Shown: positions 5,815 through 43,441 of the stretch, one piece after another
How positions within the stretch are numbered: position 1 is the first letter of the stretch
Layout: each line of letters opens with the position of its first letter
DNA from: a virus
DNA length: 43,472 nt
Reading direction: 5' to 3' (one strand)
Virus record (IMG/VR): IMGVR_UViG_3300021601_000003
Span: 1-43,472 of that record
Program-made: the position numbers and the translations under genes
Notes under the pieces: model-generated
Databases searched by the model: none
What the model saw: the letters and a program-made list of their open reading frames with translations, nothing else
Told to the model about the DNA's origin: nothing

Positions 5815-6773
5815 GATGGTTTAATTCGGGAAAGCAACTCCATAAGCGCGACCGCAGCCTGCAACGCCACAACGCCATTTCCGCCGCAGCGCAACTGATC
5901 GGCTCGGCACGCGTCCACCACCATGGCCACCCCATCAACCAGCACACGAACGCCGGGTTCAACCGCCGGCGCAAGGTGGGGGCGGTCGGCGAGGATTCGC
6001 TGCCATACGGCGGTGTCGCTGGGACCTGGGGCGAATACCGGAACTTCACAAAATTCGGCAGTTGATCCAGATGATGCGCCTGCCCGTTCTCCCCCCGGTA
6101 ATCCCTTGCCGCAGGAGTCGGCCAGGCCGACGCCTGCGTCTGAATCGTCACGGACCCGTCCCGGTCGCAATGGTCCGGGCCCGTCATCGCATTGCTTCGG
6201 GGGCTGGCCAATTTCTCCGCCCGCGCGGTAGGCCAAGACGAACACCCGCTCCCGCTTATGCGCTGCGCCCACATCTTCCGCAGCAATGAACACCGGGTCC
6301 GCGATCTCGTAACCCAGTCGGCATAATTCCTCTCCGACTGCCCGGAAGTGTCCGCCCATAACCCAAGCTGGGACATTTTCGAGGAACACCAAGGCGGGCT
6401 CACTCTCTTCGACGATCCGCAGGAAGTGGACAATGGGCCCGTCCCCGTCGCCCCAGCTTCGTCGGTCGCTGTTTCCAGCCTGCTTCCCGGCGAGGCTGTA
6501 CGGCTGGCACGGGAGTCCCGCAACGAGGATGTCCACCACACCACGAAAGGGTTGCGCGTTGAAGTCCCGCATATCGCCGCCCCAAACAGGCGCTGGCTCC
6601 AAGCTCTGGTCTTCCATCCGGGCCAGGAGGACGGCCGCAGCGTAGGCTTCCCATTCACAATAGGCCGCAGTTCGAGCGTCGGGCCAGACGAGCCGCGCGG
6701 CTTCATCGAGCATCCCGACGCCGCTGCAAAGCGAGAGGATAACTGGGGAGGTATCAGCCACATGATGATTCAC
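5811..6773 (-). CDS. DNA (cytosine-5) methyltransferase
   Basis: The product is 320 aa. Motif I is LSLCSGVGMLDEA (about 13-25), motif IV VAGLPCQPYS with catalytic Cys89, motif VI FLENV (130-134), motif VIII AHKRERVF (171-178) and motif X GNGVVALQAAVAL near the C-terminus. The target-recognition region between VIII and X is short, about 100 residues. No restriction endonuclease gene is adjacent, so it is an orphan enzyme, most simply protecting phage DNA from host restriction. It overlaps both neighbours by 4 nt. Specificity cannot be read from the sequence. Confidence 0.92.
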   Translation of the reverse strand: MNHHVADTSPVILSLCSGVGMLDEAARLVWPDARTAAYCEWEAYAAAVLLARMEDQSLEPAPVWGGDMRDFNAQPFRGVVDILVAGLPCQPYSLAGKQAGNSDRRSWGDGDGPIVHFLRIVEESEPALVFLENVPAWVMGGHFRAVGEELCRLGYEIADPVFIAAEDVGAAHKRERVFVLAYRAGGEIGQPPKQCDDGPGPLRPGRVRDDSDAGVGLADSCGKGLPGGERAGASSGSTAEFCEVPVFAPGPSDTAVWQRILADRPHLAPAVEPGVRVLVDGVAMVVDACRADQLRCGGNGVVALQAAVALMELLSRIKPS

Positions 6774-8078: not shown

Positions 8079-8098
8079 GCTACAAACGGCTACGCCAA
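8079..8098 (-). promoter_or_regulatory. GTAGC box pair, 10-bp phase
   Basis: In plus-strand reading GCTACAAACG starts at 8079 and GCTACGCCAA at 8089, exactly 10 bp apart; in the sense of transcription these are GTAGC boxes. The left box reaches into the 40-bp gap before the coiled-coil gene, and the exonuclease TAG stop (8092-8090) is embedded in the other. See the finding on the whole family. Confidence 0.4.
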
Positions 8099-12824: not shown

Positions 12825-13100
12825 TCAGCCTTTCCGCCCGGCGACATTGCCCACGACCGGCTTCTTGATGAAGCGCGCCAAGGCGACCACCTCGGGCTCT
12901 TTCATGGGCTGCCCGTCTGGCGTCTCGATCATGGCGCGTCCGCCGTCCACTAGCATTCCCACGAGCTTGCCAACGGAGTAGTGCAGTTCACTAGATTGAC
13001 GCTCCAGCCAGTCGCGCTGGTCACGGGTGAAGCGGATGCTGATGGGGTCGGTGGTGGAGTCAACTGACGGGGCAACACGTTTGGTGGCGGTCGATTTCAT
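12825..13100 (-). CDS. Small DNA-binding-like protein upstream of integrase, 91 aa
   Basis: The ATG at 13100 has no Shine-Dalgarno; instead GTAAC boxes end 9 nt upstream. The N-terminus is basic and Thr/Ser-rich, then DPISIRFTRDQRDWLERQS and ELHYSVGKLVGMLVDGG give a strand plus two helices, a ribbon-helix-helix pattern. The C-terminus is basic (RFIKKPVVGNVAGRKG). It is probably a transcription factor or a recombination-directionality helper for the integrase it precedes by 2 nt. It is also the best candidate to bind the flanking phased boxes. Confidence 0.65.
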   Translation of the reverse strand: MKSTATKRVAPSVDSTTDPISIRFTRDQRDWLERQSSELHYSVGKLVGMLVDGGRAMIETPDGQPMKEPEVVALARFIKKPVVGNVAGRKG

Positions 13101-13108
13101 GGGGTACG

Positions 13109-13138
13109 GTTACAACACATTTGAAGAAGTTACAACAT
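13109..13138 (-). promoter_or_regulatory. GTAAC boxes upstream of the integrase operon
   Basis: Plus-strand GTTACAACAC starts at 13109 and GTTACAACAT at 13129, 20 bp (two helical turns) apart, both reading GTTGTAAC in the sense of the leftward operon. The nearer box is 9 bp from the ATG at 13100, which lacks a ribosome-binding site. Confidence 0.5.
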
Positions 13139-13151
13139 TTTTGTTGCATTG

Positions 13152-13176
13152 GTAGCGGAGGGTAGTTATTTGTAGC
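13152..13176 (+). promoter_or_regulatory. GTAGC/GTAGT triple array upstream of the rightward operon
   Basis: On the plus strand GTAGC starts at 13152, GTAGT at 13162 and GTAGC at 13172, each 10 bp apart, the last box ending 2 bp before the ATG at 13179. The boxes face the opposite way to those at 13109-13138, matching the direction of the gene they precede. Confidence 0.5.
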
Positions 13177-13178
13177 GC

Positions 13179-13415
13179 ATGAATTGCGACACCCCAAGAA
13201 CAGATGAATTCATTGGAGAACAAAGTGAGTGGTCGCCAGCACCGTTGAAAAACTGGCCAGCATTCGCCCGCCAACTCGAAAAGGAACTCAACGCCGCGCG
13301 GGCTGAACTCGCCGCCGTGAAGCTGGACCGTGACAACTGGAAGGCTTGGGGCCAGATGCAGAACCGTGACAACTGGAAGGCTTGGGGCCAGATGCAGAAA
13401 CAGGAGAAACCATGA
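13179..13415 (+). CDS. Small protein with duplicated 12-residue segment, 78 aa
   Basis: The ATG at 13179 directly follows a phased GTAGC array; a GGAGGG at 13156-13163 is too far away to be a normal ribosome-binding site. The product has a helix (WPAFARQLEKELNAARAELAAVKLD) and then two copies of RDNWKAWGQMQ, made by a 36-bp tandem duplication at 13328-13363 and 13364-13399. It resembles small phage proteins with an N-terminal CDTPRTDEF-type motif and a coiled coil. The function is unknown. Its stop overlaps the next ATG by 4 nt. Confidence 0.65.
   Translation: MNCDTPRTDEFIGEQSEWSPAPLKNWPAFARQLEKELNAARAELAAVKLDRDNWKAWGQMQNRDNWKAWGQMQKQEKP
13328..13399 (+). repeat. 36-bp in-frame tandem duplication
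   Basis: Two adjacent copies beginning CCGTGACAACTGGAAGGCTT are at 13328 and 13364. They add one 12-residue block to the end of the 78-residue protein. I see no difference between the copies until the last bases, which suggests a recent slippage or unequal exchange. Confidence 0.85.
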
Positions 13416-13705
13416 ACACGCTCAAACTCACCCTGAAAAAGAAGTGGTTCGACATGATCGCCAGCGGCGTGAAGAAGGAGGAATACCGCGCTCCATCTCG
13501 GTGGATTCGGTCGCGACTTGTCCACAAGGTTTGCGCCTACGACGCCGTGGACTTCACGAACGGTTACGGGGCCAACAAGCCGTTCATTCGCGTTGAGTTC
13601 CTGGGCTTTGAGTTCGGTGACGGAAAGCCGGAATGGGGCGGCACCAAGGGCGTGTACATCATTAAGCTGGGCAAGATTTTGGAACGTAGAAACATCAAAC
13701 CATGA
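13412..13705 (+). CDS. ASCH-domain protein
   Basis: The product is 97 aa from the ATG at 13412, with AGGAGAAAC as ribosome-binding site. LTLKKKWFDMIASGVKKEEYR is the conserved N-terminal part of ASCH/PUA-like phage proteins, followed by FTNGYGANKPFIRVEFLGFEF and KGVYIIKLGKIL strands. ASCH domains are thought to bind RNA or modified nucleic acid; the target here is unknown. It overlaps both neighbours in the rightward operon by 4 nt. Confidence 0.85.
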   Translation: MNTLKLTLKKKWFDMIASGVKKEEYRAPSRWIRSRLVHKVCAYDAVDFTNGYGANKPFIRVEFLGFEFGDGKPEWGGTKGVYIIKLGKILERRNIKP

Positions 13706-13891: not shown

Positions 13892-14101
13892 ATGAAGCGA
13901 AAGCGTGGAACCCCTTGTCCCCGTTGTGGCCGTCCCATGATCCTGACGCTATGCGCCAAAGCGTGTTACAGAAAGGATTGCCGGACTGATAAGAATCCGG
14001 TTATTTACCGCGCTTCTCCACCTTCGTCGGCACCGAGTTCCGGTAATACGGAATGCCCGTCTGGAGGTTCTGCACCAGCCCGTGCGGATCGCGCCGGATA
14101 A
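13892..14101 (+). CDS. Small cysteine-rich (zinc-ribbon-like) protein
   Basis: The ATG at 13892 is one base after the previous TGA, with GGAGGAAGTGAG as ribosome-binding region. The product begins MKRKRGTPCPRCGRP and has further cysteines (LCAKACYRKDC), a plausible zinc ribbon. From about residue 36 onward it overlaps the 3' end of the convergent polyvalent-protein gene by 101 bp and becomes Ser/Pro-rich. The first half looks real; the C-terminal tail is dictated by the opposite strand. Confidence 0.55.
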   Translation: MKRKRGTPCPRCGRPMILTLCAKACYRKDCRTDKNPVIYRASPPSSAPSSGNTECPSGGSAPARADRAG

Positions 14102-17100
14102 CGTCCCCGTTGGCGTCCTTGTCCATCTGGCGGGCCGTCCATTGCACCGCCTGCGGGATGGCCAAGCTGCGGGCCTTGTCGCCCAGCCACCGATCGCGCT
14201 GGAGCGGGTCACGGAGATTGTCCAGTCCAATGCCCTCGCGCACGAACGGAGACTCATCTACGAGCCCGAGCAACGCCGCCGCCGTGCCAGCAGGCACGCC
14301 TTGCGGTTCACCATCAGACTTCTTGGCCTTCACACCAGCGACACGCGCCACAGTGGCACCCATCTGCACCACGTCCATCAAGGGATAGTGCAACAGGTTC
14401 TTGTCCACGTTCACCCCGTCGAGTTTGGCCGTGCCCGGCTTGAGATCATCCGCCTTGCGCTTCTCGCCATGGACGTAGAACCCGCCCCAGTTGCCGGCGG
14501 TGTAGAAGCCCAGCAGCAGCAGCGCGCCACCCAGTGACCCCTTGCTAAGCTGGCGCATGATGTCATCCGCTTCCTGGGGCTTGAGCGATTCCACGCCGCG
14601 CCGGTAAGCCTGCGCTGCCTTGGTGCCGCCCGTCAGCAAGCCCGTGGCGGTTTCCAGTGCTTCACCAACGATGTTGCTGGGCACCTTCACGATTGGAAGC
14701 ATGAGGCGCGCAGCCGTGGCCGCAGCCTTCCACCGGAGCGGCGTCTTGCCCGTGGTCTTGTCCTTGTCCTCCATGCGCCGGAGCGCGGCCTTGTACACGT
14801 CCACCACGCGGTTGTCTTGCAGGAAGATGGCCCGCTGCGCGTCCTTGTAGGCTTCGACGCCAAGACGCATTTGAACGCCAGGGTCGGACACATCCACGCC
14901 TTGGGCCGCGTTCCACTGCATCCGCTGCTCCATGCTGCGCGCCCACTCCGCGCGCTTGACGGGGGCCTTCAACGCGCCGTGGAGATGGCCGAAGAAATCC
15001 AGCCAGGTCTTGGGCAGCACGGAAGACTCGCCAATGCCGGCGGGGTCTTTGCCCTTGCCGAAAGCGAGGTCGAGATTGCTTTCCCCCGTCCGCAGCATGT
15101 CCCAAGCGTCCTTCATGCCAGTGGTGATGCCCTCGGACAGCGCCTTCACCTCGGCGCTCAACATCAGTCCACCTTGGCGCGGAGCACGATCCGCCAGCGC
15201 GGGCAATGCCTTGGCCCACGCTGCCTTGACGGCTTCCTCCATGGGCATGAACGCGGTGCGGTAGATGGCGGCCGACGTGAGCTTGGCGATGACCGCTGGC
15301 GACGACAGGATGGCCGCCCGGTGCCAGCGCACAGCCGCATCCATGGTCTTTTCCGCCGCCGTGCGATTGGCGAGCCGGTCGAGCAACAGCCCCTTGCGCC
15401 ACTCGCCCTTGGCCCGCTCGGCATCGGCCCGGAGCCGTTCCGCCTCGGGGTCCAGCTTCACGACCTTGCGTTGGCGCGGTTCGAAGTCCTTGTTCGCCAG
15501 GCGTTCGGCGTAATCAGCGGCAAGATTAGTGAGGCGAGTTTTCAAGGATGCCAACTGGCGCTCCTCGGCAGTCTTTACCGGCCCCTTACGCGCTTCCGCC
15601 AACCGGCGGTTCACTTCATCAAGTTGCTGGCGGGCCATTTCCAATTCCGGCGACGCCATGGGGCGGTTCACCTTGGCCGGCGAATTCGTGGACAGGTCGC
15701 CACTGGCAAGCTTGGCTTCCCGTTCAGCGATGGCCTTCTTCATGGACTCAAGCTGCCGTGCAATCGCTTCCGCAGCTTTCTGGCCCTCGGGCTTCTTACG
15801 CGCTTCCGCCAACCGGCGGTTCACTTCATCAAGTTGCTGGCGGGCCATTTCCAATTCCGGCGACGCCATGGGGCGGTTCACCTTGGCCGGCGAATTCGTG
15901 GACAGGTCGCCACTGGCAAGCTTGGCTTCCCGTTCAGCGATGGCCTTCTTCATGGACTCAAGCTGCCGTGCAATCGCTTCCGCAGCTTTCTGGCCCTCGG
16001 GCTTCTTACGCGCTTCCGCCAACCGGCGGTTCAACTCGTCCCGCTTCTGAATCAGCGGTTCAAGCACGGGATCAGCCGGACGGTTCACCGGCTTGTCCGT
16101 CGCCGGTTTCGGTCCATCCTTCAAAGCCTGCTCTTTGTCGGCAATGGACTTCTCCAGACTGCTCCGCTGGCGTTCCATCGCCTGCATCGCCTGCTGTTGC
16201 TGGTACTCGTTCGACAACTCCCGCAACTCCTGCCACTGCGTCCGCACCGCGTCACGCCGGGCCTTGAGCGCGTCCAGTTCCGGGCTGGTGATCGTCGGCT
16301 TGGACTTCTTGATGCCCGTCTCGCCAGCGGCAATGCGCTGCTCGTAATCGGCAATCTGCCGTTCCGTGGCCCGCACCGACGCCGCCAACAACTGCTCATC
16401 CGTCCTGCCCGGCTTCGGCACCAGGTCATCCAACTGGCGTTTCAACTCGTCCCGGCGCGCTTCCATCAACTGGCTTTCCGCATCGAACGGCGCATCCGTC
16501 TTGCTCTTGATGATGCGTTCCTTGGAATTGATCTGGAATTCCAGGTCGGCAATCTGGTTCTTGAGCCGGGTCTTTACCGCGTCCAGCGCGCTGCGCAACT
16601 GCCGGGCCGGGTCGGTCACGACCACGCCATGACGGCGCTTGGCCTCGTTCACCTGCTGAATCAGCCGCCGTTCCTCGTCGCTCTGTGGCCGGCGCTCGAT
16701 GCCGGTCTTTTGCAGCGGTTTCTTGGCCTGAATGTCCTCCAGCTTGGCCACCTGCTGCATCTGGCCCTTCAGATCCCGGAGCGTCGCCTTGGCAACATCG
16801 CGGTCCAGCGGTTTGAAACTGCCGTAACCGCTGATGGCGTCCATCGTCTCGCGCCGGGTGATGTCCATTCCCACCTCCTCGGTCACGACCTTGTGAACGG
16901 CATCCACCAGGGCCTCGCGCTCCGTGATTCCACCCCGGACAAAGCTCAACGCCAGCTTGCGGATGTAGTCGCCGGACAGTTTCAGGGGGATGTCCTCGGC
17001 TTTGGCCTTCTTCAGCCCCTCGATGATGTTCTCGCGACGGCCGGACTCGTCCTGATTCCGCAGCAACCGCTTCACGGGCTCGGCCTTGTCCCCGTACTTG

Positions 17101-20100
17101 GCACCTTCGTTCTCCAGGTGGACGTTCGCCTTGTCCCATGCCGCTTGCAGGTAGGGCTTCACCTTCTCGCCATAGGTTTCGACCATCTCCAAGCTGAATT
17201 TGGTGAAGTCCAAGCCTTTGCGGGCAATCAGTGCCGCGCCCTTGACGCCAAGGTGGTAAAGCAGTTCCGGGTCGAGACCAGAGCTGGCCCGTGACAACAT
17301 CTCGCGGATGGCCGCGTCTGACTTGCTGGCCTGCTTCTCCAGCTTGGTGACAATCTCCTCGGCAATCTTGATGATGCGCGAGTCGTAGGGCGGTCGCTTG
17401 GCTATCTCCCGCTTCATGTCCTCGATGGCCTCGTCCGTCATACGGTTGGCCCGCTCCTGCTCGGTCTTGGCCCGGTACGCATCAAATGCCGCCTGCGTCT
17501 CCTCGATGCGCTGCTGGAGTTTCACCATGTTCTCGCGCTCGGCATCGGACAGCGGGGCACCACCACGGGCGGCCCGCTTCTCAGCTTCCATCTTCGCCAG
17601 GGTGAAATCCTCGTAGGCCAGCATCTTGCGCGCGGCCAGGCCCCGGCCCGTCTCGCTGCCCACGGCCTTGTTCACGTCGTAGAGTTCCAGCAGCTTGTCG
17701 GAAAGGTCCGCCGTGAGCAGGCGCATCTCCTCCACTTCCGCTTTCCGGTTCGGGAACGTCTTGGAATCCTCGTAGGCTTGGGCCATCTCGCGCGTCGCCT
17801 TGGCGTAATCGTTCTGCAGCTCTATTTGGCGATGCAGCAACAGGGCATTCTCCAAGTCCGTCGTGGCCCGTGGATTGGCCTTGAGGCTTTCAATCAGCCG
17901 GTCTTGCACACCAGGCTCGCGGTCGATCGTGGCCATGGCCTGATCCCACACGCCGCCCCATTCCCGATGCGCGGCTTTCATGGCCGGCGGCAGCCCCCGC
18001 TTCACGCGCTCGGCATCCACCGCCGCGTTCTTGGTGCTGATCGTGGAGCGTTGGTCATGCTCGAATTCACCCGGCTTGGCCCCACCCATGCCGAACTTGC
18101 CCAATGCACCAGAGTTGATGTCAGTGCTGGCCTTCGGCGTCGGTGGCGTGAACAAATCTTCCGGCTGCTGGAACATGTCCCCCTGGCCCAAGTCCCCGGT
18201 CGTGCCCGTCAACGGCTTGGCCGCGGCTTCCGCAACCTTGGCCTTGGCCGCCACGGCATCGCGTGCGGCCTGTTCCCGGTCCATCCGCGCCTGCTGCTCG
18301 GCGACGCTCTCGGGCGCGGTCAGGACGCTGGGCTCGGGCGCGCCCCGCACTTTCGCCACGAGGTCGGGCTGCATCGGCCAGTTCTGCCACCGCTCCAGTT
18401 CCGCCTTCAACGCCTCAATGCGCTTCGGAATAGCTTCCGGGTTCGCCACGTCGATGCCTTCACTTTTGGCAATCTCGACCTTGCGCCCGGCCCGCAGCAC
18501 GCTGATCCGGTCACGGATTTCCTTCTGGAACTCGCTCGCCCGCTTGGCCTGCTCGGCCATCGTCTTCATGGCTGAATCGTCGGCCCCGAACAGATCCAGC
18601 GACTGCGCCCGTTGCCCGGACTCTGCCTGGCTGGCCTTGATTACGTTGGTGAGGAAGTCCGGGCTCTTGCCCTCCAGCGCGAACTTGATGCCAATGCGTT
18701 GCGCGTTGGCGTCTCCGGGGGCCGCGTTGGCTATCGCGCGGGTGGCTTCGGGGCTGATTTGCTCGTTGATGAAACTGGTAAAGAGATCATCGCTGGCCTT
18801 GATTCCGATGTCTTCAGCCGCCCGGCCGCGAGAGCCAATGCGTCTTCCCGTTGCCACCGATTCATCCGCTCCATGTGTTGCTGCCGTGTTTCGGAAGAAT
18901 TTTGCTTGGTCATAGATCGTGCCTTTCCCGTCCGCAATGTTCACCTCGGCCGCGATGGTCCGGGCGTCGGCTGCGCTGTAGCCGTCCGCCTCACGCAGAA
19001 CCTGGGCATTGTAACCCTTACGCCCCGCGCGTTGACCAAATTCAAACCGATGGTGACCATTGGCGACAATGTACTTCTGACCCTCAGAAAGTCCATGCGC
19101 TTGCGGACTCAACGGTTCCCACAGCAGCAACACCCCCGCCTTCCGGTCATCCCATTTTCCATCCAGCTTGTCCGTGGTGTTTATGCCAGTGGCGGAATCC
19201 TCCATGTGCTTGAACTGCATCAGGTCCGGCCGCGTGGCAATTTCGCTGGATGGAATCGCCGGCACGGGCTCATCCACCAGTTGCGCGGCGGTTTCGGGTG
19301 CCTTGATAGATTCAGGAACAACCGCTTTCTCGACGGCGGCAGGCTTTTCACCAGGTAGAGGGCGAACCCGTGTGACGGTGAAATCCCCAGCCCGGTAGTA
19401 GGATGGTCCTTTTACCTTCTCCGTTCCGGACTCGCCAGCGGCAGCGCGCACCGCTGCGTCACGGTCATCGAACACGTTGTGGCCCACAGGACCATGCTCG
19501 TCGATGCGCGTGACCCGCCACTTGCCGGGTTCCGATGGTTCTGGGGTCACCAGAAGCTTGCTCGTTGGCGAATCCTTGCTGGTCAACTCCACCGCGCCGG
19601 CATCGCCAGCAGCATCTACCACGACTTGAACCTTGGCTTCACGGTCCGCCCGCAGTTGACGGGTACGCTCCAGGAATGCGTTCTGGCGATCAGTCTTGGA
19701 CTCGGTCTTGAGGCCCAACTGTTCATCGGCTAACGCTTGCCGTTTCGCCCTGTCCGCCGCTTCCTTTTTCAGAGTTTCCGCCAGATTGGCCTCAGTGGAA
19801 CCGGGCTTAAAGAAGTCCTCGTTCAGACCAAGCTGTTCGCGGGCTTTCTGCTTCACCGCTTCCCAGTCCCACCCTTCGGATGCGGCCTTGGCCTTGGCTT
19901 TGGCCAGCATCTGTTGAGCGTGCTCGCTGTTATCCCGAACAGATGGGGCATCATCCGCCGCCGATGATCCAAAGTGCGACGCGGTGTGCTGCTTAAACAC
20001 CTCGGGCGCGGAATCGGCAGCTACGATTCTGGCTAGATCATTGGGCAGAGTCGGGATTGGAGACGGATTCGCTGCCAGTGGTGGAGGATTCTTTCCAAAC

Positions 20101-21704
20101 GCGATGGCGTCTGCGTACTGCTGTGCATCCTTCAGTTTCGGGAAAATCTGAACCACCGGGAATCGCTCGCCAGAATCAACATCCAGAAGCGTGACCGCAA
20201 ACTTACCATCGGCCCTTTCCTTCACGTCAGCCCGGACATTGGTTTCCGGGTTCAGGACTGAATGAATGAACTCACTTGTCGGAGAATTTGCCACCGCCGG
20301 TTGATTGGCAGGTTCAGCGGGAGGAAAAGCAACCACCTCGGCTGGAGCAGCCTTTGCGGGTTCAGGTGCGGTGGTCGCCGGCGGTGGCGAAGGGGGAACG
20401 GTTTCGGCCTTGTCCGGGGTCGCCGGCACAACCTCCGCCGCTGGCGCTGCTTCCGGGGTCGGTTGCGGCGCTGGAAATTCAGTGGTGCCCGTGTCGGGAT
20501 TCACCAGTACGTCCTGGCCGGACTCGTTCTTGGTGGTCTCCAGCGGTTGCGTCGCCACCTCGGCAGCCTTAGCCTTGAGCGCGGCAAAGGTGGCCATGTT
20601 GCCCGCTTGGAAATTGGCCTGGGCCGCCGTTCGCAACGCCACGACCTGTTCCACACGGGGCTGATGCTGATCCACCATGTCACGGCCAGCCTGCTCCAGC
20701 AGCGCGCCAATGTGCGGGTCATTCACCGCCGCATTCAGCATGTCCCCCGCCACCTTCGCCACAGTGGGCGCTTCCGCTGGCGTCCCGGCGTGCTTGGCCG
20801 TCGCTGCCACCATGCTGGCCGTCACGTATGGGCCGATCGCCGCCGTGAACTTGTCCAGCGCGCTGGCGTTCGGGTCGGCCAGTACCGTGCTGGATTCCGC
20901 CAGTTGATCCGGCAACCCGCTGGCCATGTCCGCCGTGAAACCGCCAGCAACCGCCCGTCCGGCCGCGTGTGAAAGTACCTCAGCCTGCGCCGCCGTGGCC
21001 AATTCCGCTTGGAGTGCCGCCCCGGTGGATTCGCTGCCCGCCAAGACTCGAGCAAATGCGCCTGTACCCGCGCCAAAGCCAGCCCCGCCTGCCAGGGTCA
21101 GAATCCCGGGGCCCGTCAGGAAGAAGCGCGGCAAGCCCCGTGCCGTGTTGCTGACTGCGCCAAGGGCAGACTCCAGCGGCTGCAGTTTCGGGTCCACGCT
21201 GGCCACGTCCTCGGCGGTGACCGGTGGCAGCGCACGATCATACACCCCGGCCAGCCCGCGTTCATCGCGCACGGCCTGGTCCTCGGCCTTAATCTTCGCC
21301 ACCTCGGGATCTTCCACGGGTGCACCGCCGTAACGCGCGCCACGATACACGTCCTGGGCCATACGCAGCGGCAATGTGCTCACCTTCAACGCCAGCATGG
21401 GGTCGAGTAGCGTCTTGGCGACCGTTCCGTTGGCCGTCTCACGCAATGCCTTCTTGAAACCAGCCCATGCTCCCTCGCCAGCAGTCGGCGCGGAACTCAT
21501 CTCGGCGTGGAACAGCGGGTCAACAGCGGCGGGGCGCTCCTCGTGGTCCACGGCATCGACTGGGGCCGCCGCTGCCGGCGTGGGCGCATCCACTGGCGTT
21601 TGCGCCTTGAAGATGTCCGCCAACTCAGCCTCGGTCGGGGGCGAGTCGCCAGTCAGCTTCAGCTTCCGGCCCGTGGCCGAATCGGTGACGATGTAGGAGG
21701 GCAT
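14001..21704 (-). CDS. Giant polyvalent virion protein, 2567 aa
   Basis: The N-terminus MPSYIVTDSATGRKLKLTGD is a common opening of phage polyvalent proteins. A Gly/Ala hydrophobic stretch lies near residues 195-235 (FFLTGPGILTLAGGAGFGAG). Near 880 a ParB/DdrB-like motif occurs (YIVANGHHRFEF, then AADARTIAAEVNIADGKGT). Residues about 1715-2055 are degenerate helical-hairpin repeats, including a perfect 70-residue duplication. The C-terminal 300 residues match the LPD38-type large-polyvalent-protein domain, with a hydrophobic segment near 2390 (GGALLLLGFYTAGNWGG). Such proteins are thought to be carried in the capsid and injected with DNA. It is the last gene of the leftward late region, downstream of two likely internal proteins. 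Confidence 0.8.
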   Translation of the reverse strand: MPSYIVTDSATGRKLKLTGDSPPTEAELADIFKAQTPVDAPTPAAAAPVDAVDHEERPAAVDPLFHAEMSSAPTAGEGAWAGFKKALRETANGTVAKTLLDPMLALKVSTLPLRMAQDVYRGARYGGAPVEDPEVAKIKAEDQAVRDERGLAGVYDRALPPVTAEDVASVDPKLQPLESALGAVSNTARGLPRFFLTGPGILTLAGGAGFGAGTGAFARVLAGSESTGAALQAELATAAQAEVLSHAAGRAVAGGFTADMASGLPDQLAESSTVLADPNASALDKFTAAIGPYVTASMVAATAKHAGTPAEAPTVAKVAGDMLNAAVNDPHIGALLEQAGRDMVDQHQPRVEQVVALRTAAQANFQAGNMATFAALKAKAAEVATQPLETTKNESGQDVLVNPDTGTTEFPAPQPTPEAAPAAEVVPATPDKAETVPPSPPPATTAPEPAKAAPAEVVAFPPAEPANQPAVANSPTSEFIHSVLNPETNVRADVKERADGKFAVTLLDVDSGERFPVVQIFPKLKDAQQYADAIAFGKNPPPLAANPSPIPTLPNDLARIVAADSAPEVFKQHTASHFGSSAADDAPSVRDNSEHAQQMLAKAKAKAASEGWDWEAVKQKAREQLGLNEDFFKPGSTEANLAETLKKEAADRAKRQALADEQLGLKTESKTDRQNAFLERTRQLRADREAKVQVVVDAAGDAGAVELTSKDSPTSKLLVTPEPSEPGKWRVTRIDEHGPVGHNVFDDRDAAVRAAAGESGTEKVKGPSYYRAGDFTVTRVRPLPGEKPAAVEKAVVPESIKAPETAAQLVDEPVPAIPSSEIATRPDLMQFKHMEDSATGINTTDKLDGKWDDRKAGVLLLWEPLSPQAHGLSEGQKYIVANGHHRFEFGQRAGRKGYNAQVLREADGYSAADARTIAAEVNIADGKGTIYDQAKFFRNTAATHGADESVATGRRIGSRGRAAEDIGIKASDDLFTSFINEQISPEATRAIANAAPGDANAQRIGIKFALEGKSPDFLTNVIKASQAESGQRAQSLDLFGADDSAMKTMAEQAKRASEFQKEIRDRISVLRAGRKVEIAKSEGIDVANPEAIPKRIEALKAELERWQNWPMQPDLVAKVRGAPEPSVLTAPESVAEQQARMDREQAARDAVAAKAKVAEAAAKPLTGTTGDLGQGDMFQQPEDLFTPPTPKASTDINSGALGKFGMGGAKPGEFEHDQRSTISTKNAAVDAERVKRGLPPAMKAAHREWGGVWDQAMATIDREPGVQDRLIESLKANPRATTDLENALLLHRQIELQNDYAKATREMAQAYEDSKTFPNRKAEVEEMRLLTADLSDKLLELYDVNKAVGSETGRGLAARKMLAYEDFTLAKMEAEKRAARGGAPLSDAERENMVKLQQRIEETQAAFDAYRAKTEQERANRMTDEAIEDMKREIAKRPPYDSRIIKIAEEIVTKLEKQASKSDAAIREMLSRASSGLDPELLYHLGVKGAALIARKGLDFTKFSLEMVETYGEKVKPYLQAAWDKANVHLENEGAKYGDKAEPVKRLLRNQDESGRRENIIEGLKKAKAEDIPLKLSGDYIRKLALSFVRGGITEREALVDAVHKVVTEEVGMDITRRETMDAISGYGSFKPLDRDVAKATLRDLKGQMQQVAKLEDIQAKKPLQKTGIERRPQSDEERRLIQQVNEAKRRHGVVVTDPARQLRSALDAVKTRLKNQIADLEFQINSKERIIKSKTDAPFDAESQLMEARRDELKRQLDDLVPKPGRTDEQLLAASVRATERQIADYEQRIAAGETGIKKSKPTITSPELDALKARRDAVRTQWQELRELSNEYQQQQAMQAMERQRSSLEKSIADKEQALKDGPKPATDKPVNRPADPVLEPLIQKRDELNRRLAEARKKPEGQKAAEAIARQLESMKKAIAEREAKLASGDLSTNSPAKVNRPMASPELEMARQQLDEVNRRLAEARKKPEGQKAAEAIARQLESMKKAIAEREAKLASGDLSTNSPAKVNRPMASPELEMARQQLDEVNRRLAEARKGPVKTAEERQLASLKTRLTNLAADYAERLANKDFEPRQRKVVKLDPEAERLRADAERAKGEWRKGLLLDRLANRTAAEKTMDAAVRWHRAAILSSPAVIAKLTSAAIYRTAFMPMEEAVKAAWAKALPALADRAPRQGGLMLSAEVKALSEGITTGMKDAWDMLRTGESNLDLAFGKGKDPAGIGESSVLPKTWLDFFGHLHGALKAPVKRAEWARSMEQRMQWNAAQGVDVSDPGVQMRLGVEAYKDAQRAIFLQDNRVVDVYKAALRRMEDKDKTTGKTPLRWKAAATAARLMLPIVKVPSNIVGEALETATGLLTGGTKAAQAYRRGVESLKPQEADDIMRQLSKGSLGGALLLLGFYTAGNWGGFYVHGEKRKADDLKPGTAKLDGVNVDKNLLHYPLMDVVQMGATVARVAGVKAKKSDGEPQGVPAGTAAALLGLVDESPFVREGIGLDNLRDPLQRDRWLGDKARSLAIPQAVQWTARQMDKDANGDVIRRDPHGLVQNLQTGIPYYRNSVPTKVEKRGK
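15587..16033 (-). repeat. Perfect 210-bp tandem duplication in the polyvalent gene
   Basis: The block containing CGCTTCCGCCAACCGGCGGT occurs at 15591, 15801 and 16011, exactly 210 bp apart. The first two copies look identical over the full 210 bp, including synonymous positions; the third runs only to about 16033 before diverging. It encodes two identical 70-residue helical units (roughly residues 1899-2039). Confidence 0.95.
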
Positions 21705-33803: not shown

Positions 33804-33823
33804 GTTACAAACCGCTACCCGAT
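33804..33823 (-). promoter_or_regulatory. GTAAC/GTAGC box pair after the capsid stop
   Basis: Plus-strand GTTACAAACC starts at 33804 and GCTACCCGAT at 33814, 10 bp apart, between the capsid stop and the 33773 hairpin. It belongs to the phased array family. Confidence 0.4.
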
Positions 33824-35022: not shown

Positions 35023-35253
35023 AGGTCAAACAGGTTGAAAATTGCTCCCTGCACCCCGCACCACACGGCGCGGACAGGTCGCTATGTTCTTCCCGATTGG
35101 CCAGTTCGGCTTGAGCCTTCGCCCGCCGTGGCAGCCTCGGCGGGGCTTCTGCTGCTGCCAGTAGTCGTTCCGTGCCCGGATGCAGGGCGTCAACACATCC
35201 GTACTTCGACCGTTCCAACTACGCTACAAAGGAACACCAACGGCTACAAACTG
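35023..35253. other. 231-bp leader between scaffold and capsid genes
   Basis: No convincing gene. A minus-strand frame from a TTG at 35218 (LERSKYGCVDALHPG, 72 codons) runs through the leader and overlaps the capsid start by 23 nt; it lacks an ATG and a ribosome-binding site, so I keep it as a possibility only. The leader holds phased GTAGC boxes at its upstream end and may be a strong capsid promoter and 5' UTR. Confidence 0.4.
35223..35252 (-). promoter_or_regulatory. GTAGC boxes in the capsid leader
   Basis: Plus-strand GCTACAAAGG starts at 35223 and GCTACAAACT at 35243, 20 bp apart. They sit 200 bp upstream of the capsid start, directly after the scaffold stop. Confidence 0.4.
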
Positions 35254-36737: not shown

Positions 36738-37438
36738 TTGAGCAACACGTCCGCTACGGAACCATCCTTGCACCGATGCAGCAACGCCGCCGCTGGCGTG
36801 ATCCACTTCGCCAGTTCCTTCTTGTTCTTCACCGTGAGCGGTGCGCCCTCGGGACTGTTCACCGCCACACCGTTGTGCACGTTCCAGACGTGCAAAATCA
36901 GGTGGTTGATCGCGTTCGTCTTGGCCGCCGTCTCCTTCTTCATCGCCACGTCCCATGGCGTCTTCATGCACAGCATGGCATTCGACGAGTGCAATCGCAC
37001 GTCCGCCGGATAGATGCCCACGCCGTTCATGTGCCCCATGCCTTCCACGACGTGACCGCTGAACGGCTTCTTGCTCAAAACATGCGCCATGTCCAAATCC
37101 AGCAACCAACCCCGGCGCAACGGCACCGCATCCGCCTCCCACCACATCCAGGGTGTGGGGTCATTCTTCGACCGCTCACCCAGCTTCCACGCCGTCTGCT
37201 TGAACGCATGGTTCGGCCCCTGTGGCCACCCCGACGGGCCTTTGTAGTAGGTGTGCGTCTCCACCATCGGGAAAATCTCGCTCGCCGCCGCCATCACCGC
37301 GTCCAGCCCTTCCGTCCCTTCCTCGATGACCACCAGCACAGGTGAATCCAGCTTCCCGTCAAACTTCTTCGCCAACGCCAGGTTCTTCAACACCAGCGGG
37401 ACCTCCTTCGTGGTGAACGGCAGGACTACGCGCAGCAT
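36734..37438 (-). CDS. Glycosyltransferase-like protein, 234 aa
   Basis: The ATG at 37438 has GGAGGCGGA directly upstream and overlaps the end of the preceding small gene by 13 nt. The opening LRVVLPFTTKEVPLVLKNLA and SPVLVVIEEGTEGLDAVMAA suit a nucleotide-sugar-binding fold, and PWMWWEADAVPLRRGWL has an acidic E-x-D motif in the place of the DxD of GT-A enzymes. HMNGVGIYPADV and the helical end follow. It is probably a sugar transferase acting on virion, host or DNA; the substrate is unknown. Confidence 0.6.
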   Translation of the reverse strand: MLRVVLPFTTKEVPLVLKNLALAKKFDGKLDSPVLVVIEEGTEGLDAVMAAASEIFPMVETHTYYKGPSGWPQGPNHAFKQTAWKLGERSKNDPTPWMWWEADAVPLRRGWLLDLDMAHVLSKKPFSGHVVEGMGHMNGVGIYPADVRLHSSNAMLCMKTPWDVAMKKETAAKTNAINHLILHVWNVHNGVAVNSPEGAPLTVKNKKELAKWITPAAALLHRCKDGSVADVLLK

Positions 37439-37605
37439 TCCGCCTCCAGTTCGCGCTGCATCCGGGCCGCTTCCTTCAGGGCCTCGGGCTTGCGCGTCTT
37501 CTTGGTGCTCCGGTTCGTCCGCTGGCCTGATGGCAACCGCAAAACCGCCTGCCAATAGGGCGAATTCTTCTGCCGGCGCAGACTCGGCGTGTAGTTCTTT
37601 CTCAT
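37426..37605 (-). CDS. Free-standing integrase-arm-like protein, 59 aa
   Basis: The ATG at 37605 and TAG at 37428-37426 enclose MRKNYTPSLRRQKNSPYWQA followed by VLRLPSGQRTNRSTKKTRKP and EALKEAARMQRELEAE. This resembles the N-terminal arm-binding strand-strand-helix of tyrosine recombinases (compare SPFWWISYTTATGRVRVSTG in the integrase here), but no core or catalytic domain follows. It starts 4 bp after a three-box phased array and precedes a glycosyltransferase-like gene. It may be a DNA-binding regulator; the family link is by pattern only. Confidence 0.55.
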   Translation of the reverse strand: MRKNYTPSLRRQKNSPYWQAVLRLPSGQRTNRSTKKTRKPEALKEAARMQRELEAECCA

Positions 37606-37609
37606 GTCG

Positions 37610-37639
37610 GCTACCGGAGGTTACAACAGGTTACAACGG
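37610..37639 (-). promoter_or_regulatory. GTAAC/GTAGC triple array
   Basis: Plus-strand GCTACCGGAG starts at 37610, GTTACAACAG at 37620 and GTTACAACGG at 37630: three boxes at exact 10-bp spacing filling the gap between the portal stop (37642) and the ATG at 37605. No Shine-Dalgarno sequence is present. Confidence 0.5.
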
Positions 37640-37641
37640 CG

Positions 37642-39906
37642 TCAAGCGGAAACCTGCTGGGCCGCCTTCGCATCGTTCAGCGCGCTGTCCTGCTGGAACT
37701 TCTTCTGCTTCAAATCCATCGCCTGCTGGGCCTTCGCGCCCTTGATCTGCATGTCCTGCTGGGCCTTCTGCACCTTCACCTGCTCCTCGGCGCTCATCGG
37801 CTGGCCCTGCGGTTGTGCCGCCTGCTGTTCCTGCGCCTGCTGTGCGACCTGCTGGTGCAGCTTGTCCGTGAACTGCGCCAGCTTCTTCCAGTGCGCCTCC
37901 AGTTGGCGATAATCATTCGCCCGCGTCTTGTCCGTGGCCAACCGCTGCAACTGCGCCGCCGTCGCCTGCCCGATCAAGTCGAGGAACGCCAGCACATCGG
38001 CCGGATTCGCCCCCTGTTGCAGCGTCGCCGCCGCCGCATCGCCCGCATTCAGGAACGTCGTCGCGTAAATCAGCGCGTTCTGCGTCGGAGTCACCAGTGG
38101 CAATAAGCCTACCTTCATGGCCGCCACCTTGTCTTGCGCCTCGGCCGCCTGATCCATCGCCGTCACGTCCTGTTGAGCGCCCGGGAAGTAGCGCCGCACC
38201 GCCTGCTGGCCTGACCGCGCCGCGATCACGTCCTGTAGGAGATTCTGCCGGCCACCCTCGGGCAGCATCTGCACCATGCCCAGCAGGAATTCCAACGCCT
38301 GCTGCCGCATGAACGGGCTGCCCTGGCCCGCAATCCGCGTCGCCTTCACCGACGACACCTTGCGCAACGCCTCAATGGGCACACCGCGCGCCACGCACCG
38401 TTCCTGGAACTCCACCGCCTCAGTCCCGCCGGGCAGGTTCTTGCGCTGCTTCGAACTCGATGCCCGCTCGTACACCTCCTCGTAAAAGTCATCAAGCTGC
38501 TGGTAGTACCTGTTCAACTGCGTCTTGCCCAGGCGCGCCTGCTCGCTCGCCCGCCAGTTCACCTCGCTGGCCGTAATCGGGTTTCCGCCCTCCTGCTGCA
38601 AATTCTGCCGGTACTGGCTCAGGTTCGACGCCACCGTGTTGCCGATCTCCCGGTTGAACTCCATTCCTTCCTGCAAGAAACCGTTCATCGGGATCTGCAC
38701 CGCGTCCCAGCCCGCCGGCAGCGACCCATAATCGCCCAGATGCGTCAATGCCAGCTTCTGCTTCGAATCGCCAGAGGTCGGACGGAACAGCACCTTCGGC
38801 GCGAACGTCTTGTCCGCCAGATTGCACATCAGCCGGTTCTGCCACTCCATCGCCCCGAACATCTTCACACCCATGCCCGAAACGCTGTGATGAAACCCGC
38901 CGCCGCCGTGGTCGTAGTACATCGGGCTGATCACGTTGCACCACTCGTCGTACTTGCGTTCCTCGTGGAACAACCAGTCCTCGTTCGTCTTGGCGCTCCC
39001 CGTCTGCACTCCGGCATCGAGTGCGATGATCGCGTGCGAAATCTTCCCTTCCGTCTCGCCGGCCTCGGGAAACTCCCGCCAGAACACATGCGCCACGCGA
39101 ATAACCTTGATGCCGAACGAGAAGTAAAGCCCCCCGTTCTTCAACTGCTGCTGCGCCCACTCCCAGTTCCGCGACGGGTCATTGTACTGCCGCTGGTTGT
39201 CGGGCACCGCGTTGATGATCGCCTGCTTCACCGCCTCCACCTTCCAGCCCACCGCCTCCGCCGCCTTCGGGTCCACGATCCGCGCGTACAACTCATCCGG
39301 CTGATACGTCATGATCCGCGCGCACCACTCCCAATACTTGGTGTTGCTCTTCGTCATGTCCGGCACGTACAGATCCCGGTGCTCGCTCGCCATCGGCCGC
39401 CAGTCCGTCGTGTCGTTGAACCACAGGGGCCCGGACCCGTACAACACCATCTCGTTGATCGAAATCTGCATCGGGTAATCCAGCACGTTGTCATCCTTCA
39501 ACAGACGGTCAAACTCCTCCGTTATGATGTTGCTCCAGGCCGTGCGGCTCTCCTCGGGGCCGTATTCCGTCTCCACCTCGGCGTAAGTCTTGGCCTCGTT
39601 GAACACGTCGTAAAATGCCCCCGTCGCCGCCCCCAGATACGCCTCCGCAATCCGCCAGTTGACGTTGCACGCCGTGGCGCGGCCCGCTTCCTTGAGTTTC
39701 CCAGGTGAGTACGGCGGGTTGCCATCCACCAGCCCCTTCACCAGCGCACGCTTCCGGGCGCGCAGTTCGTCGTTGCGCATCAGGCCCAGCACCATCGTCC
39801 GCGCCTGATTCGCATTGGCGATGCGCGTCTGCGGGGCCGCCCCGTCCGGGGCCAGTGTCGCCAACGTGCCGTTTGTGTTCGCCCCGGTGTCAGTTAAAGC
39901 TTGCAT
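37642..39906 (-). CDS. Portal protein (podovirus type), 754 aa
   Basis: The product begins with a polar linker and MVLGLMRNDELRARKRALVK. Typical portal patterns follow (ERKYDEWCNVISPMYYDHGG, FGAMEWQNRLMCNLADKTFA, GFLQEGMEFNREIGNTVA). The C-terminal 150 residues are a Gln/Ala/Lys-rich helix like the barrel or crown of short-tailed phage portals. It lies in a head module with terminase, scaffold and capsid genes. The ATG at 39906 has no Shine-Dalgarno and abuts a phased box array. Confidence 0.85.
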   Translation of the reverse strand: MQALTDTGANTNGTLATLAPDGAAPQTRIANANQARTMVLGLMRNDELRARKRALVKGLVDGNPPYSPGKLKEAGRATACNVNWRIAEAYLGAATGAFYDVFNEAKTYAEVETEYGPEESRTAWSNIITEEFDRLLKDDNVLDYPMQISINEMVLYGSGPLWFNDTTDWRPMASEHRDLYVPDMTKSNTKYWEWCARIMTYQPDELYARIVDPKAAEAVGWKVEAVKQAIINAVPDNQRQYNDPSRNWEWAQQQLKNGGLYFSFGIKVIRVAHVFWREFPEAGETEGKISHAIIALDAGVQTGSAKTNEDWLFHEERKYDEWCNVISPMYYDHGGGGFHHSVSGMGVKMFGAMEWQNRLMCNLADKTFAPKVLFRPTSGDSKQKLALTHLGDYGSLPAGWDAVQIPMNGFLQEGMEFNREIGNTVASNLSQYRQNLQQEGGNPITASEVNWRASEQARLGKTQLNRYYQQLDDFYEEVYERASSSKQRKNLPGGTEAVEFQERCVARGVPIEALRKVSSVKATRIAGQGSPFMRQQALEFLLGMVQMLPEGGRQNLLQDVIAARSGQQAVRRYFPGAQQDVTAMDQAAEAQDKVAAMKVGLLPLVTPTQNALIYATTFLNAGDAAAATLQQGANPADVLAFLDLIGQATAAQLQRLATDKTRANDYRQLEAHWKKLAQFTDKLHQQVAQQAQEQQAAQPQGQPMSAEEQVKVQKAQQDMQIKGAKAQQAMDLKQKKFQQDSALNDAKAAQQVSA

Positions 39907-39940: not shown

Positions 39941-40561
39941 TCAATCGCAGAATGGCCTCAGCTTCGGAATCCACTCATGCCGCGGCTGCTTCCCCCGCAT
40001 CCGCGCGTTCGGAAAATGCACCGCCAGGGCCGTTTCCCACCCGGGCGCGCTGAACTCTTCCACCAGCTTGCGCCGGTCAAACGCCTCCGCCGGCAACTGG
40101 TCCAGAATGTTCTGGTCACTGCAATGCTGCCGCCCCTGATGCTCGTCCCGCTCCGTCGGGGTCCACGCCGCGAACATCCTTGACATCAAATGATACTGCG
40201 TCTGCGATCCGCTCACCAGGCACGGGCACGATCCGCCGCTCCACGTCGTCAGCTTGTCCGTCGGCCGCTGGGGCAGCATCCCATACGGCATCACGTCGTA
40301 GTCACTCATCCACCCGCCGCCGACCACCGCCATGGCCAACCACCGCAGGTAACACGCCAGCTCATACCCTGGCGCATTCACCGTCGGCAGATTGGAAAAC
40401 GCCGTAGCCAGCTCGGCAAAGTACGGATGCTGCCGCGCCTCGCGCTCGCTCAGAATCACTGGGTTCCACCCCTCCGCCGTCCACCGCTGCCGCCACAGGT
40501 CCAGCAACGGCAACGCCTCGCGGTCACAGCCAATCGAAGTGTGGTACGTGTAGATGTTCAC
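39941..40561 (-). CDS. Glycosyltransferase-like protein (3' part of frameshifted gene)
   Basis: From the GTG at 40561 the frame gives 206 aa starting NIYTYHTSIGCDREALPLLD. A DxD-containing motif in GGGWMSDYDVMPYG and a preceding LACYLRWLAMAV match capsular or mannosyl-type GT-A transferases. The frame upstream of the GTG is also protein-like (ESCQQWRHSQYYGPVWCPV) but has no start codon; it joins the GTG at 40665 only by a -1 shift. So the true product is probably about 241 aa. It lies between a zinc-ribbon gene and the portal. Confidence 0.65.
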   Translation of the reverse strand: MNIYTYHTSIGCDREALPLLDLWRQRWTAEGWNPVILSEREARQHPYFAELATAFSNLPTVNAPGYELACYLRWLAMAVVGGGWMSDYDVMPYGMLPQRPTDKLTTWSGGSCPCLVSGSQTQYHLMSRMFAAWTPTERDEHQGRQHCSDQNILDQLPAEAFDRRKLVEEFSAPGWETALAVHFPNARMRGKQPRHEWIPKLRPFCD

Positions 40562-40665
40562 AAAAGCATCCCCGCCGCTGCGCCTGACAGGGCACCAGAC
40601 CGGGCCGTAATACTGTGAGTGACGCCATTGCTGGCACGACTCGATCGCGGCGGGAAAATCTTCAC
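40558..40665 (-). CDS. Zero-frame 5' segment with -1 slippery heptamer
   Basis: A GTG at 40665 overlaps the zinc-ribbon stop (GTGA) and has GGAGGAGG upstream, so initiation here is plausible. The zero frame reads VKIFPPRSSRASNGVTHSIT and ends at 40558 after 35 residues. At 40657-40651 the sequence T TTC CCG fits X XXY YYZ; a -1 slip there gives VKIFPAAIESCQQWRHSQYY and joins the transferase frame. It is either programmed frameshifting or a one-base deletion (natural or sequencing). Confidence 0.5.
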   Translation of the reverse strand: MKIFPPRSSRASNGVTHSITARSGALSGAAAGMLL

Positions 40666-41147
40666 GTCAACCTCCTCCACTTCGGCGGATCATCCGGGCA
40701 CTCCTCACTCGCCGCAAACAGCTTGAGCCCGCTGCACCCGCATTTGCCGCACCGACCCATCGCCACGTTCGTGCCGTCTCCCCGCCAGTGGTTGCACGTC
40801 AGGCAGGTATTGCGCCGCTCCTGAAACTGCTCCTGCGACACGATCCGAAACCCGCTCGATGCCCACGACGCCATCGCCAGCGTGAACCGCTTGGCCATCT
40901 CCACCAGCGACGGCAACCCCGTGGCCTCGTCCACGTCCTCGCACAACTCCGGGTGCCGCTCGCAAAACTGGTCCGTGATGCGCTGTTCCAGATGCCGCAG
41001 CGGGTAGTTGTTCGCCTCGCAGTGCGCCCGCACCTTCACCAGTACCACCCCTGGCGTCTGCCCGAGAAACTCCATACCCGACTCCGGCACCACGTACCGG
41101 TAGTTCCCGCCCGGGGGCACACGTTCAGGATGCAGGATGCGTTTCAC
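40662..41147 (-). CDS. Zinc-ribbon protein, 161 aa
   Basis: A GTG start at 41147 has GAGGGAG about 8 nt upstream. The N-terminus is MKRILHPERVPPGGNYRYVV; a helical middle follows (RFTLAMASWASSGFRIVSQE). The C-terminus has CLTCNHW, RCGKCGCSG and a final ECPDDPPKWRR, a CxxC...CxxCxC zinc ribbon seen in small phage proteins that end CP..KW. The role is unknown, possibly linked to the transferase that follows. Its stop overlaps the next GTG by 4 nt. Confidence 0.65.
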   Translation of the reverse strand: MKRILHPERVPPGGNYRYVVPESGMEFLGQTPGVVLVKVRAHCEANNYPLRHLEQRITDQFCERHPELCEDVDEATGLPSLVEMAKRFTLAMASWASSGFRIVSQEQFQERRNTCLTCNHWRGDGTNVAMGRCGKCGCSGLKLFAASEECPDDPPKWRRLT

Positions 41148-41260: not shown

Positions 41261-41641
41261 TCATTTGGCGTGCGTGCCTTCAACCCCGCGCCGCATCCGT
41301 TCCAACGTCCTCTTCTGGAGCCACATCTGGGCTTCCTCAATCTTGGTGAGGGCAACCGCATTGTCTCTGCACGCATACGGCCCAGCCTGAAATGACCGCA
41401 GACGATCCGCGACGATGGCTAGCAGAACCTCCTGCGTCACACCATTTACACCCACCTCGTTGATCGGCCCATTCTGGAACGCGATCAATGTTTCTGCCGG
41501 AATTGCCACACCCCCATTCTCCGGCTTGTAACCAGCGATGAGGTAGTGATGGCACGCACCACCAGCTCCGGGTTGGTCAGTAACAGTGATGGACAACGTA
41601 TCGTTGCACGGGTTGATCTTGTGTTCGTTCAGGGTTCTCAT
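41261..41641 (-). CDS. Tad1/Acb2-like cyclic-nucleotide sponge candidate, 126 aa
   Basis: Residues 9-40 are beta-like (INPCNDTLSITVTDQPGAGG, then CHHYLIAGY). Residues 55-68 FQNGPINEVGVNGV and the helical part from LLAIVADRLRSFQAGPYACR through NAVALTKIEEAQMWLQKRTL to RGVEGTHAK match the family I know as Acb2/Tad1 hairpin-domain proteins, which sequester signalling molecules of Thoeris or CBASS immunity. Ligand specificity cannot be read here. It lies alone between terminase and the zinc-ribbon gene, has an A-rich leader without a Shine-Dalgarno, and is preceded by a perfect three-box phased array, suggesting its own control. Confidence 0.7.
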   Translation of the reverse strand: MRTLNEHKINPCNDTLSITVTDQPGAGGACHHYLIAGYKPENGGVAIPAETLIAFQNGPINEVGVNGVTQEVLLAIVADRLRSFQAGPYACRDNAVALTKIEEAQMWLQKRTLERMRRGVEGTHAK

Positions 41642-41667
41642 TGTTGTTTTTTTGTCGCGCTGGAACA

Positions 41668-41697
41668 GTTACACCAAGTTACAACCGGCTACAAGCA
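41668..41697 (-). promoter_or_regulatory. GTAAC/GTAGC triple array upstream of the Tad1-like gene
   Basis: Plus-strand GTTACACCAA starts at 41668, GTTACAACCG at 41678 and GCTACAAGCA at 41688, exactly 10 bp apart, between the terminase stop (41699) and the ATG at 41641. Confidence 0.5.
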
Positions 41698-41698
41698 C

Positions 41699-43441
41699 TT
41701 ATTGAAAATTTCCCGCCTCGTAACCCGCCACCATCTCCTCCTCGTTGCCAGCGGCATAGTCCACCTCCCGGTACACCGCGCCCGCCGCCTTGTGCACGTC
41801 CGTCTCCACCTCGGCCCGCTGTGCCGTCGCCCCCACCTGCCGCACTACCAGCCCCAGTCGCCGCGCCGCCTCCAGCGCAAAACACGCGCCGTCCGCCAGG
41901 TCGGGACTCCGCCCGTGCCGCTTCTTGTACTCGTCCTTGGTCTCGATCGACACCTTCCGCTTGTCCGACTCGTACCGGCGACTGCAAAATTCCACCGCCG
42001 TCTCCGCGTCCAGCCCTCGCAGTTGCCCTGACATCAGCAGCTCACGCGCCTGATACCACAGCTCGGTCACCTTCCGGTCATACGCCTCATGCGCCGGCCG
42101 GGGATCTTCGTGGCTCACCATGCGGTCGCTCGGCTTCCCGCCCGACTCAATCCGCAGCACCGGCCCCCACTCCCGCTCCAGGATGTCGCAGAACACGCGC
42201 CCGGCCCCGCTCGCATCCACCGCCAACCGGTCATGCGTCACGCCGCGCGCCTCGCACTCCTTCCGTACCTTGCGCGCCATCTGGAAATTCGGCGGCTCAC
42301 TCGCCCGGGCATCCGTCGTGATCTCCACCTTGTCGCCCAGTTGCAGCCCAATCAGCCCATCCGCCACCGGCCCCCACTTCACAAACCGCAACACCGCCCG
42401 GTCGCCACCGCCAAACGACGGATCAAACCCCGCTGCCGCCTGCAACCCCGTCCCTTCCCAAACCCAATCCTTCGTCGCCCGCTGCCGGACAATCTCCCCC
42501 TCCGTGAAAATCGTCGGCACCAGCCCATCCGGCGGCCAGAACCCGCGCACTTCCGACCAATACCGTGGCGAGTTGTCGCCCAGGCCTTTCCGCAACCCTT
42601 CCAGCTTCCGCAACGTGATCAGGTGCGGGTACACGCACCGCCCCTCCAGCACATTCGGGCACCGTTCCGCATCAAACCGCACCACCAGCCCGCGCTTTCC
42701 ATCCAGCTTCGTCTTCGTCTCCCACCGCTCATCATCCACACACACCGATTCCCACCCGTTCGCCGGCTCCGCAAACCGCCCCATCGCATCCAACCGCGAA
42801 AACGGATTTCCAATCACCAGCATCCGAAAATCCTCGGGATACCCACACAAATTCACGCACGCCTCAAACACCGCGTCCGGCGTGCTCGTCGCCTCATCAA
42901 TCACCACCAGTTGACGCTTCGTGTGCAACCCCTTGATGTTGTCCACCGCCTTGTTCACGCTGCCCCCATCCTCCACCGCCAGGCCGATGATCGCGTGCTT
43001 GTCATCCCCCTCCCGCGCCTGCCACATCATCCGCGAATCCACAAAGTTCCCCGTCCGCTGCAACCCCATCTCCCGCCGCAATGACGAAATCTCCGCCCAC
43101 GCGCGCCGGCGAAGGGCCTTGCCCGTCGTGCTCGTCAGGATCACCGAACTCGATTCCGGCTCGCACAGCCACCACAGCAACGCAAACAGGCTCCCTCCAA
43201 ACGTCTTGCCCGCACCCGCGCACCCCGCCCATACCACCCACTTCGATTCCCCAAGGCTCTCAAACTGCTTCTCCAACCACGGGTTCCATTCCTGCCTCGG
43301 ATTAAGCACATCCAGCACATTCTTCAGATGCACCAGCTCACGCATCCCCCCCTTGCTCTCGTCCTGCCCAAACGCCACCGCCGCCCGCTCATAGTCGAAC
43401 TGCGTCATCGCCCCATGCAAGGGCAGGCCATAGGTCCGCAA
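41699..43441 (-). CDS. terL: Large terminase subunit
   Basis: The product is 580 aa from a TTG at 43441; an ATG at 43408 (MTQFDYERAA) gives 569 aa, and the frame is open to the window edge, so the start is unsettled. Walker A GCAGAGKT is at 73-80, Walker B LVVIDEAT at 178-185. The RNase H-like nuclease domain has GFDPSFGGGD (Asp340), VDASGAGR (Asp409) and SPDLADG (Asp514, Asp517). It packages phage DNA. No small terminase was recognised in the window; it may lie off the edge or be divergent. Confidence 0.95.
   Translation of the reverse strand: MRTYGLPLHGAMTQFDYERAAVAFGQDESKGGMRELVHLKNVLDVLNPRQEWNPWLEKQFESLGESKWVVWAGCAGAGKTFGGSLFALLWWLCEPESSSVILTSTTGKALRRRAWAEISSLRREMGLQRTGNFVDSRMMWQAREGDDKHAIIGLAVEDGGSVNKAVDNIKGLHTKRQLVVIDEATSTPDAVFEACVNLCGYPEDFRMLVIGNPFSRLDAMGRFAEPANGWESVCVDDERWETKTKLDGKRGLVVRFDAERCPNVLEGRCVYPHLITLRKLEGLRKGLGDNSPRYWSEVRGFWPPDGLVPTIFTEGEIVRQRATKDWVWEGTGLQAAAGFDPSFGGGDRAVLRFVKWGPVADGLIGLQLGDKVEITTDARASEPPNFQMARKVRKECEARGVTHDRLAVDASGAGRVFCDILEREWGPVLRIESGGKPSDRMVSHEDPRPAHEAYDRKVTELWYQARELLMSGQLRGLDAETAVEFCSRRYESDKRKVSIETKDEYKKRHGRSPDLADGACFALEAARRLGLVVRQVGATAQRAEVETDVHKAAGAVYREVDYAAGNEEEMVAGYEAGNFQ

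Follow-up and report, generated by a model that had tools for sequence, protein, structure and literature searches.

A Tad1 homologue beside the terminase gene of a phage with few database relatives

Results

The window, by which we mean the whole 43,472-nt stretch of IMG/VR record IMGVR_UViG_3300021601_000003, carries on its minus strand at 41,261–41,641 an open reading frame with an ATG start that encodes a 126-aa homologue of the anti-defence protein Tad1. Immediately upstream lies the gene for the terminase large subunit, terL (41,699–43,441, minus strand; PHROG 2, E 4.7e-25). The original prediction placed tad1 at the head of the late region; it does follow directly after terL, with a gap of 57 bp, but no further gene separates terL from the end of the record. 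The downstream neighbour (40,662–41,147, minus strand; phrog_13558, E 1.4e-4) is a 161-aa protein in which a CxxC/CxxCxC zinc-ribbon-like stretch is seen by eye. Further on, a glycosyltransferase-like ORF (39,941–40,561, minus strand), one of more than one such ORF in the window, was recognized by eye and has no profile match, which holds for the others as well. It is followed by a 754-aa protein (37,642–39,906, minus strand) that is probably the portal by position and size and for which no relatives were found. Just downstream of this is a 59-aa ORF (37,426–37,605) that by eye resembles the N-terminal arm domain of a tyrosine integrase. Elsewhere, a 2,567-aa protein at 14,001–21,704 has no PHROG match.

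The tad1 product reads FQNGPINEVGVNG and, further on, ...RMRRGVEGTHAK in translation. Its nearest relative, at locus L002, is 76% identical, and the two genes differ at 27, 17 and 60 first, second and third codon positions; 43 of the codon changes are synonymous and 30 non-synonymous. Changes that fall mainly in the third position indicate a genuine gene subject to purifying selection, and the predicted reading frame was recovered at its exact coordinates, on the minus strand, as conserved coding sequence.

When the protein was compared with all PDB chains by phmmer, seven distinct sequences matched at E<1; six are Tad1 structures and the remaining one is gp184 (8y6v; E 8.8e-19), probably the phage Tad1 named orf184 in a review (PMC12043709). 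The best match was CmTad1 (8kbb, E 1.8e-23), and CbTad1 (7uav/8smd) matched with E 2.1e-20. Among profiles, PHROG 2428 matched with E 2e-34 and the Pfam model PF24729 (Acb2_Tad1_hairpin) with E 3.7e-5 and 24.3 bits, slightly under its curated cut-off of 27, and the NCBIfam profiles gave no match. An AlphaFold2 model built from 37 aligned proteins (the window protein and those of related loci) has a mean pLDDT of 87 and shows four strands (residues 2–4, 17–20, 32–36 and 50–55) and two long helices, that is, the four-strand N-terminal sheet and C-terminal helical hairpin described for Tad1 (PMC12043709). Foldseek against the PDB found 20 chains at E<0.001, all of them Tad1, with TM up to about 0.75 and including gcADPR, cAAA and cAAG complexes; the next match had E 0.46. 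The model superposes on the PDB chains with a high overall rmsd of 4–6 Å, possibly because a lone monomer was set against chains taken out of assemblies. Neither of the two outcomes that would have counted against the original prediction here, absence of a profile match or a fold lacking the pocket elements, was seen.

The protein has a conserved core. Across 39 sequences that include SBSphiJ7 Tad1, F55, Q56, G58, P59, E62, N66 and G67 are invariant, as are R80, Q85, R111, R115, R118, E121 and G122. F84 and N94 are also conserved and align with CbTad1 F82 and N92, which we take to be needed for ligand binding, a pairing that holds only if the PDB chain has one extra N-terminal residue. By sequence and fold the closest solved relative is CmTad1 (PDB 8kbb, 8kbc, 8kbd), whose FQxGPIxExGxNGV loop and helical hairpin to xGxEGT recur in the window protein, although identity is about 37% and the N-terminal 27 residues lie outside the phmmer alignment. 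CbTad1, from a Clostridium botulinum prophage (PDB 7uav, 7uaw, 8smd, 8kbe, 8kbf), has the same fold and a nearly identical hairpin (DRLxSFQAGPxxxRxNAxALT) but carries FQKGARKEEKSQHGV where the window protein has its FQNGPI..GVNG loop; the FQxGPI..G.NG loop of the window protein is therefore nearer that of CmTad1. The founding anti-Thoeris protein, SBSphiJ7 Tad1 (annotated as Tad1 in OM982674), is 42% identical with the same core residues, differs in its N-terminal part and comes from a Bacillus phage in the family Herelleviridae.

The window gene is a further member of a known family, since other viral contigs and prophages carry more than 100 close relatives of it; one scan alone found 129 viral stretches encoding a relative. 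In a scan of genomes, relatives turned up in Pseudomonadota, Planctomycetota, Verrucomicrobiota, Acidobacteriota, Bacillota and others. Some are labelled 'ABC transporter ATPase' in phage records, that of OLIVR5 (L083) among them, which is probably a mis-annotation. A tree of 147 proteins pairs the window protein with that of L002 (support 99/98), within a clade made up mainly of viral contigs and Pseudomonadota. At L002, tad1 adjoins a family-2 glycosyltransferase gene and has a TylF-type methyltransferase gene nearby. TerL was detected within 5 kb at 21 of 162 related loci, downstream of tad1 in 17 and upstream in 4, and directly upstream of tad1 at L081, at L115 and in the window.

The 126-aa protein is thus a Tad1 homologue, an ordinary and well-supported new member of a known family. 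The original prediction left the choice between Tad1 and Acb2 open; its family call was right, and the PDB, PHROG and Pfam matches together with the fold narrow it to Tad1. Acb2 has in common with the window protein the sponge mode of action and a hairpin covered by the same Pfam model, so that a short all-helical hexamer binding only cyclic oligonucleotides might be considered. However, Acb2 is shorter and all-helical, and the four-strand N-terminal domain that the model places beside the C-terminal hairpin is absent from it (PMC12043709); nor did any Acb2 chain in the PDB match at E<1 by sequence or E<0.001 by fold. The protein is Tad1 rather than Acb2 because of this beta domain, and we regard an Acb2-type sponge as having almost no chance of being correct. 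A role in virion structure or as a packaging accessory, suggested by the frequent place beside terminase genes, is very improbable too: TerL is on the same strand as tad1 in every one of the 21 loci, but a common strand is frequent among phage genes and by itself counts for little, and at most loci no TerL neighbour was detected and the other neighbours are unrelated, while the solved homologues of tested function are sponges.

It is unlikely, if less easily dismissed, that the protein has the Tad1 fold but binds mainly another nucleotide, or a signal outside those tested so far. A conserved N-terminal motif (MRxIxxHxxNPANDxLxIxVxDxPGAGGAxH) is particular to this subfamily and is matched less well by SBSphiJ7 Tad1, and the cyclic dinucleotides bound vary among homologues (PMC12043709). 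Against this, CmTad1, which was solved with cAAA and cAAG, has the FQxGPI..G.NG loop and the hairpin as well. Given this loop and what is known of the family, binding of gcADPR and cyclic trinucleotides is the likeliest property of the window protein.

The region between terL and tad1 holds three TTGTARC-type boxes 10 bp apart (41,668–41,694, minus strand), reading TTGTAGC-NNN-TTGTAAC-NNN-GTGTAAC, with 26 nt between the array and the tad1 start codon. The leader that follows (41,642–41,667, minus strand; GACAAAAAAACAACA-ATG) has an A-rich end and no Shine-Dalgarno sequence. This lack, noted in the original prediction, is nothing special, given that an SD-like motif is found in 7 of the 25 phage genes checked and missing from 18. 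The claim that tad1 has its own phased box array likewise stands in part: the array is real and phased at 10 bp, but it is not private to tad1, because similar arrays phased at 10 or 20 bp lie at about six gene boundaries. On the minus strand, an array lies directly upstream of the 59-aa ORF (37,610–37,636), an intergenic pair has boxes 20 bp apart (35,223–35,249), and a pair 10 bp apart with one mismatch sits just past a stop codon (33,804–33,819). Pairs also lie upstream of the ORF at 12,825–13,100 and the integrase (13,109–13,135, 20 bp apart) and, again with one mismatch, upstream of the ORF at 6,770–8,050 (8,079–8,094, 10 bp apart). A divergent plus-strand pair, 20 bp apart (13,150–13,176), precedes an ATG at 13,179. 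The tad1 array is the most complete in the window, of a kind common to other units.

The boxes are far more frequent than expected, with 17 occurrences of TTGTARC in the window (3.4 expected) and six 10-bp-spaced matches when one mismatch is allowed (0.11 expected). Same-strand TGTARC pairs within 60 bp in the window have spacings of 10 (three times), 20 (three times) and 33 bp (once) only. Of the 17 TGTARC sites on the minus strand, 10 lie at most 60 nt upstream of where a called gene starts, in zones that together cover 3.5% of the window, compared with 0 of 15 on the plus strand (p 1.5e-6 with neighbouring sites merged, approximate because gene starts were hand-picked). Apart from the window's own DNA (L001), only two of the compared loci have any pair at 9–11 or 20–22 bp. 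The arrays look regulatory, and 10-bp-phased direct repeats resemble the binding sites of OmpR/PhoB-class or ribbon-helix-helix regulators.

Two candidates for a protein reading the boxes were rejected: the ORF at 12,825–13,100, ribbon-helix-helix by eye, matches no profile, lacks relatives and gives a low-confidence model, and the 59-aa ORF is not significantly similar to the integrase of this phage (BLASTP E 0.19). The divergent stretch at 13,080–13,420, with minus-strand boxes before the ORF at 12,825–13,100 and the integrase and plus-strand boxes directly before the ATG at 13,179, has the appearance of a region that controls lysogeny functions. Inside the plus-strand ORF at 13,179–13,415, a 36-nt direct repeat (13,319–13,390) is present in two copies that are 92% alike.

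The phage is remote, its TerL being at most about 25% identical to known phages. Neither terL (six distant matches among viral contigs, the best at 25%), nor the portal protein (no relative among viral contigs and phage records), nor tRNA and Rfam scans (no matches) named a host; the double box had 6 matches in 145 Verrucomicrobiota genomes, in line with a reversed-pattern control. Scanning viral contigs for the box triple gave 53 stretches, mostly low-GC tandem decamers, and these were left out as host evidence because most have no visible kinship to the phage. Many unrelated viral contigs, most of them low in GC (L206, L210, L212, L219 and others), contain tandem decamers with a TTGTARC core, repeated from three to about a dozen times. 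The host may use nucleotide-signal immunity, as the original prediction held, but among related carriers no association with ThsB was seen: ThsB_TIR was found in 11 of 37 tad1-carrying genomes from several phyla and in 30 of 120 random Pseudomonadota, two sets that are not matched by phylum. SMODS was above cut-off in 7 of the 37.

Discussion

Members of the Tad1 family capture gcADPR and cyclic oligonucleotides but leave them intact, and in this way keep Thoeris and CBASS effectors from acting (PMC12043709, PMC12657218). Homology, fold and a conserved core tie the window protein to this family, and its gene is under purifying selection in its place behind terL. By analogy with the family, the protein would most likely assemble as a hexamer of three dimers that binds glycocyclic ADP-ribose tightly without cutting it and probably also holds cyclic di- and trinucleotides uncut. 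With the signals soaked up, Thoeris and/or CBASS effectors would stay inactive and the infected cell would not be shut down before phage replication is done. To this reading as a whole, a hexameric Tad1 sponge that holds its ligands tightly and keeps Thoeris and/or CBASS effectors inactive, we give a probability of roughly 93%.

Separate expression of tad1, as originally proposed, is possible in view of the array and the gap after terL, yet the array is common to other units, and the surroundings of tad1 showed neither a sigma-70-like promoter nor a terminator pattern. A tentative reading, for which we would not quite offer even odds, is that the arrays serve a phage-wide regulon as operators or promoter elements. 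A DNA-binding protein of the phage or its host would read them, and the regulon would switch on tad1 along with a small number of further transcription units, so that tad1 is timed separately from its upstream neighbour terL.

The finding adds to the range of Tad1 a group of integrase-bearing phages that have hardly any database relatives, and shows tad1 as recurrent near terminase genes in phages that are otherwise unrelated. If the box arrays are regulatory, they would show, as is seldom possible, how a phage controls the timing of a counter-defence gene.
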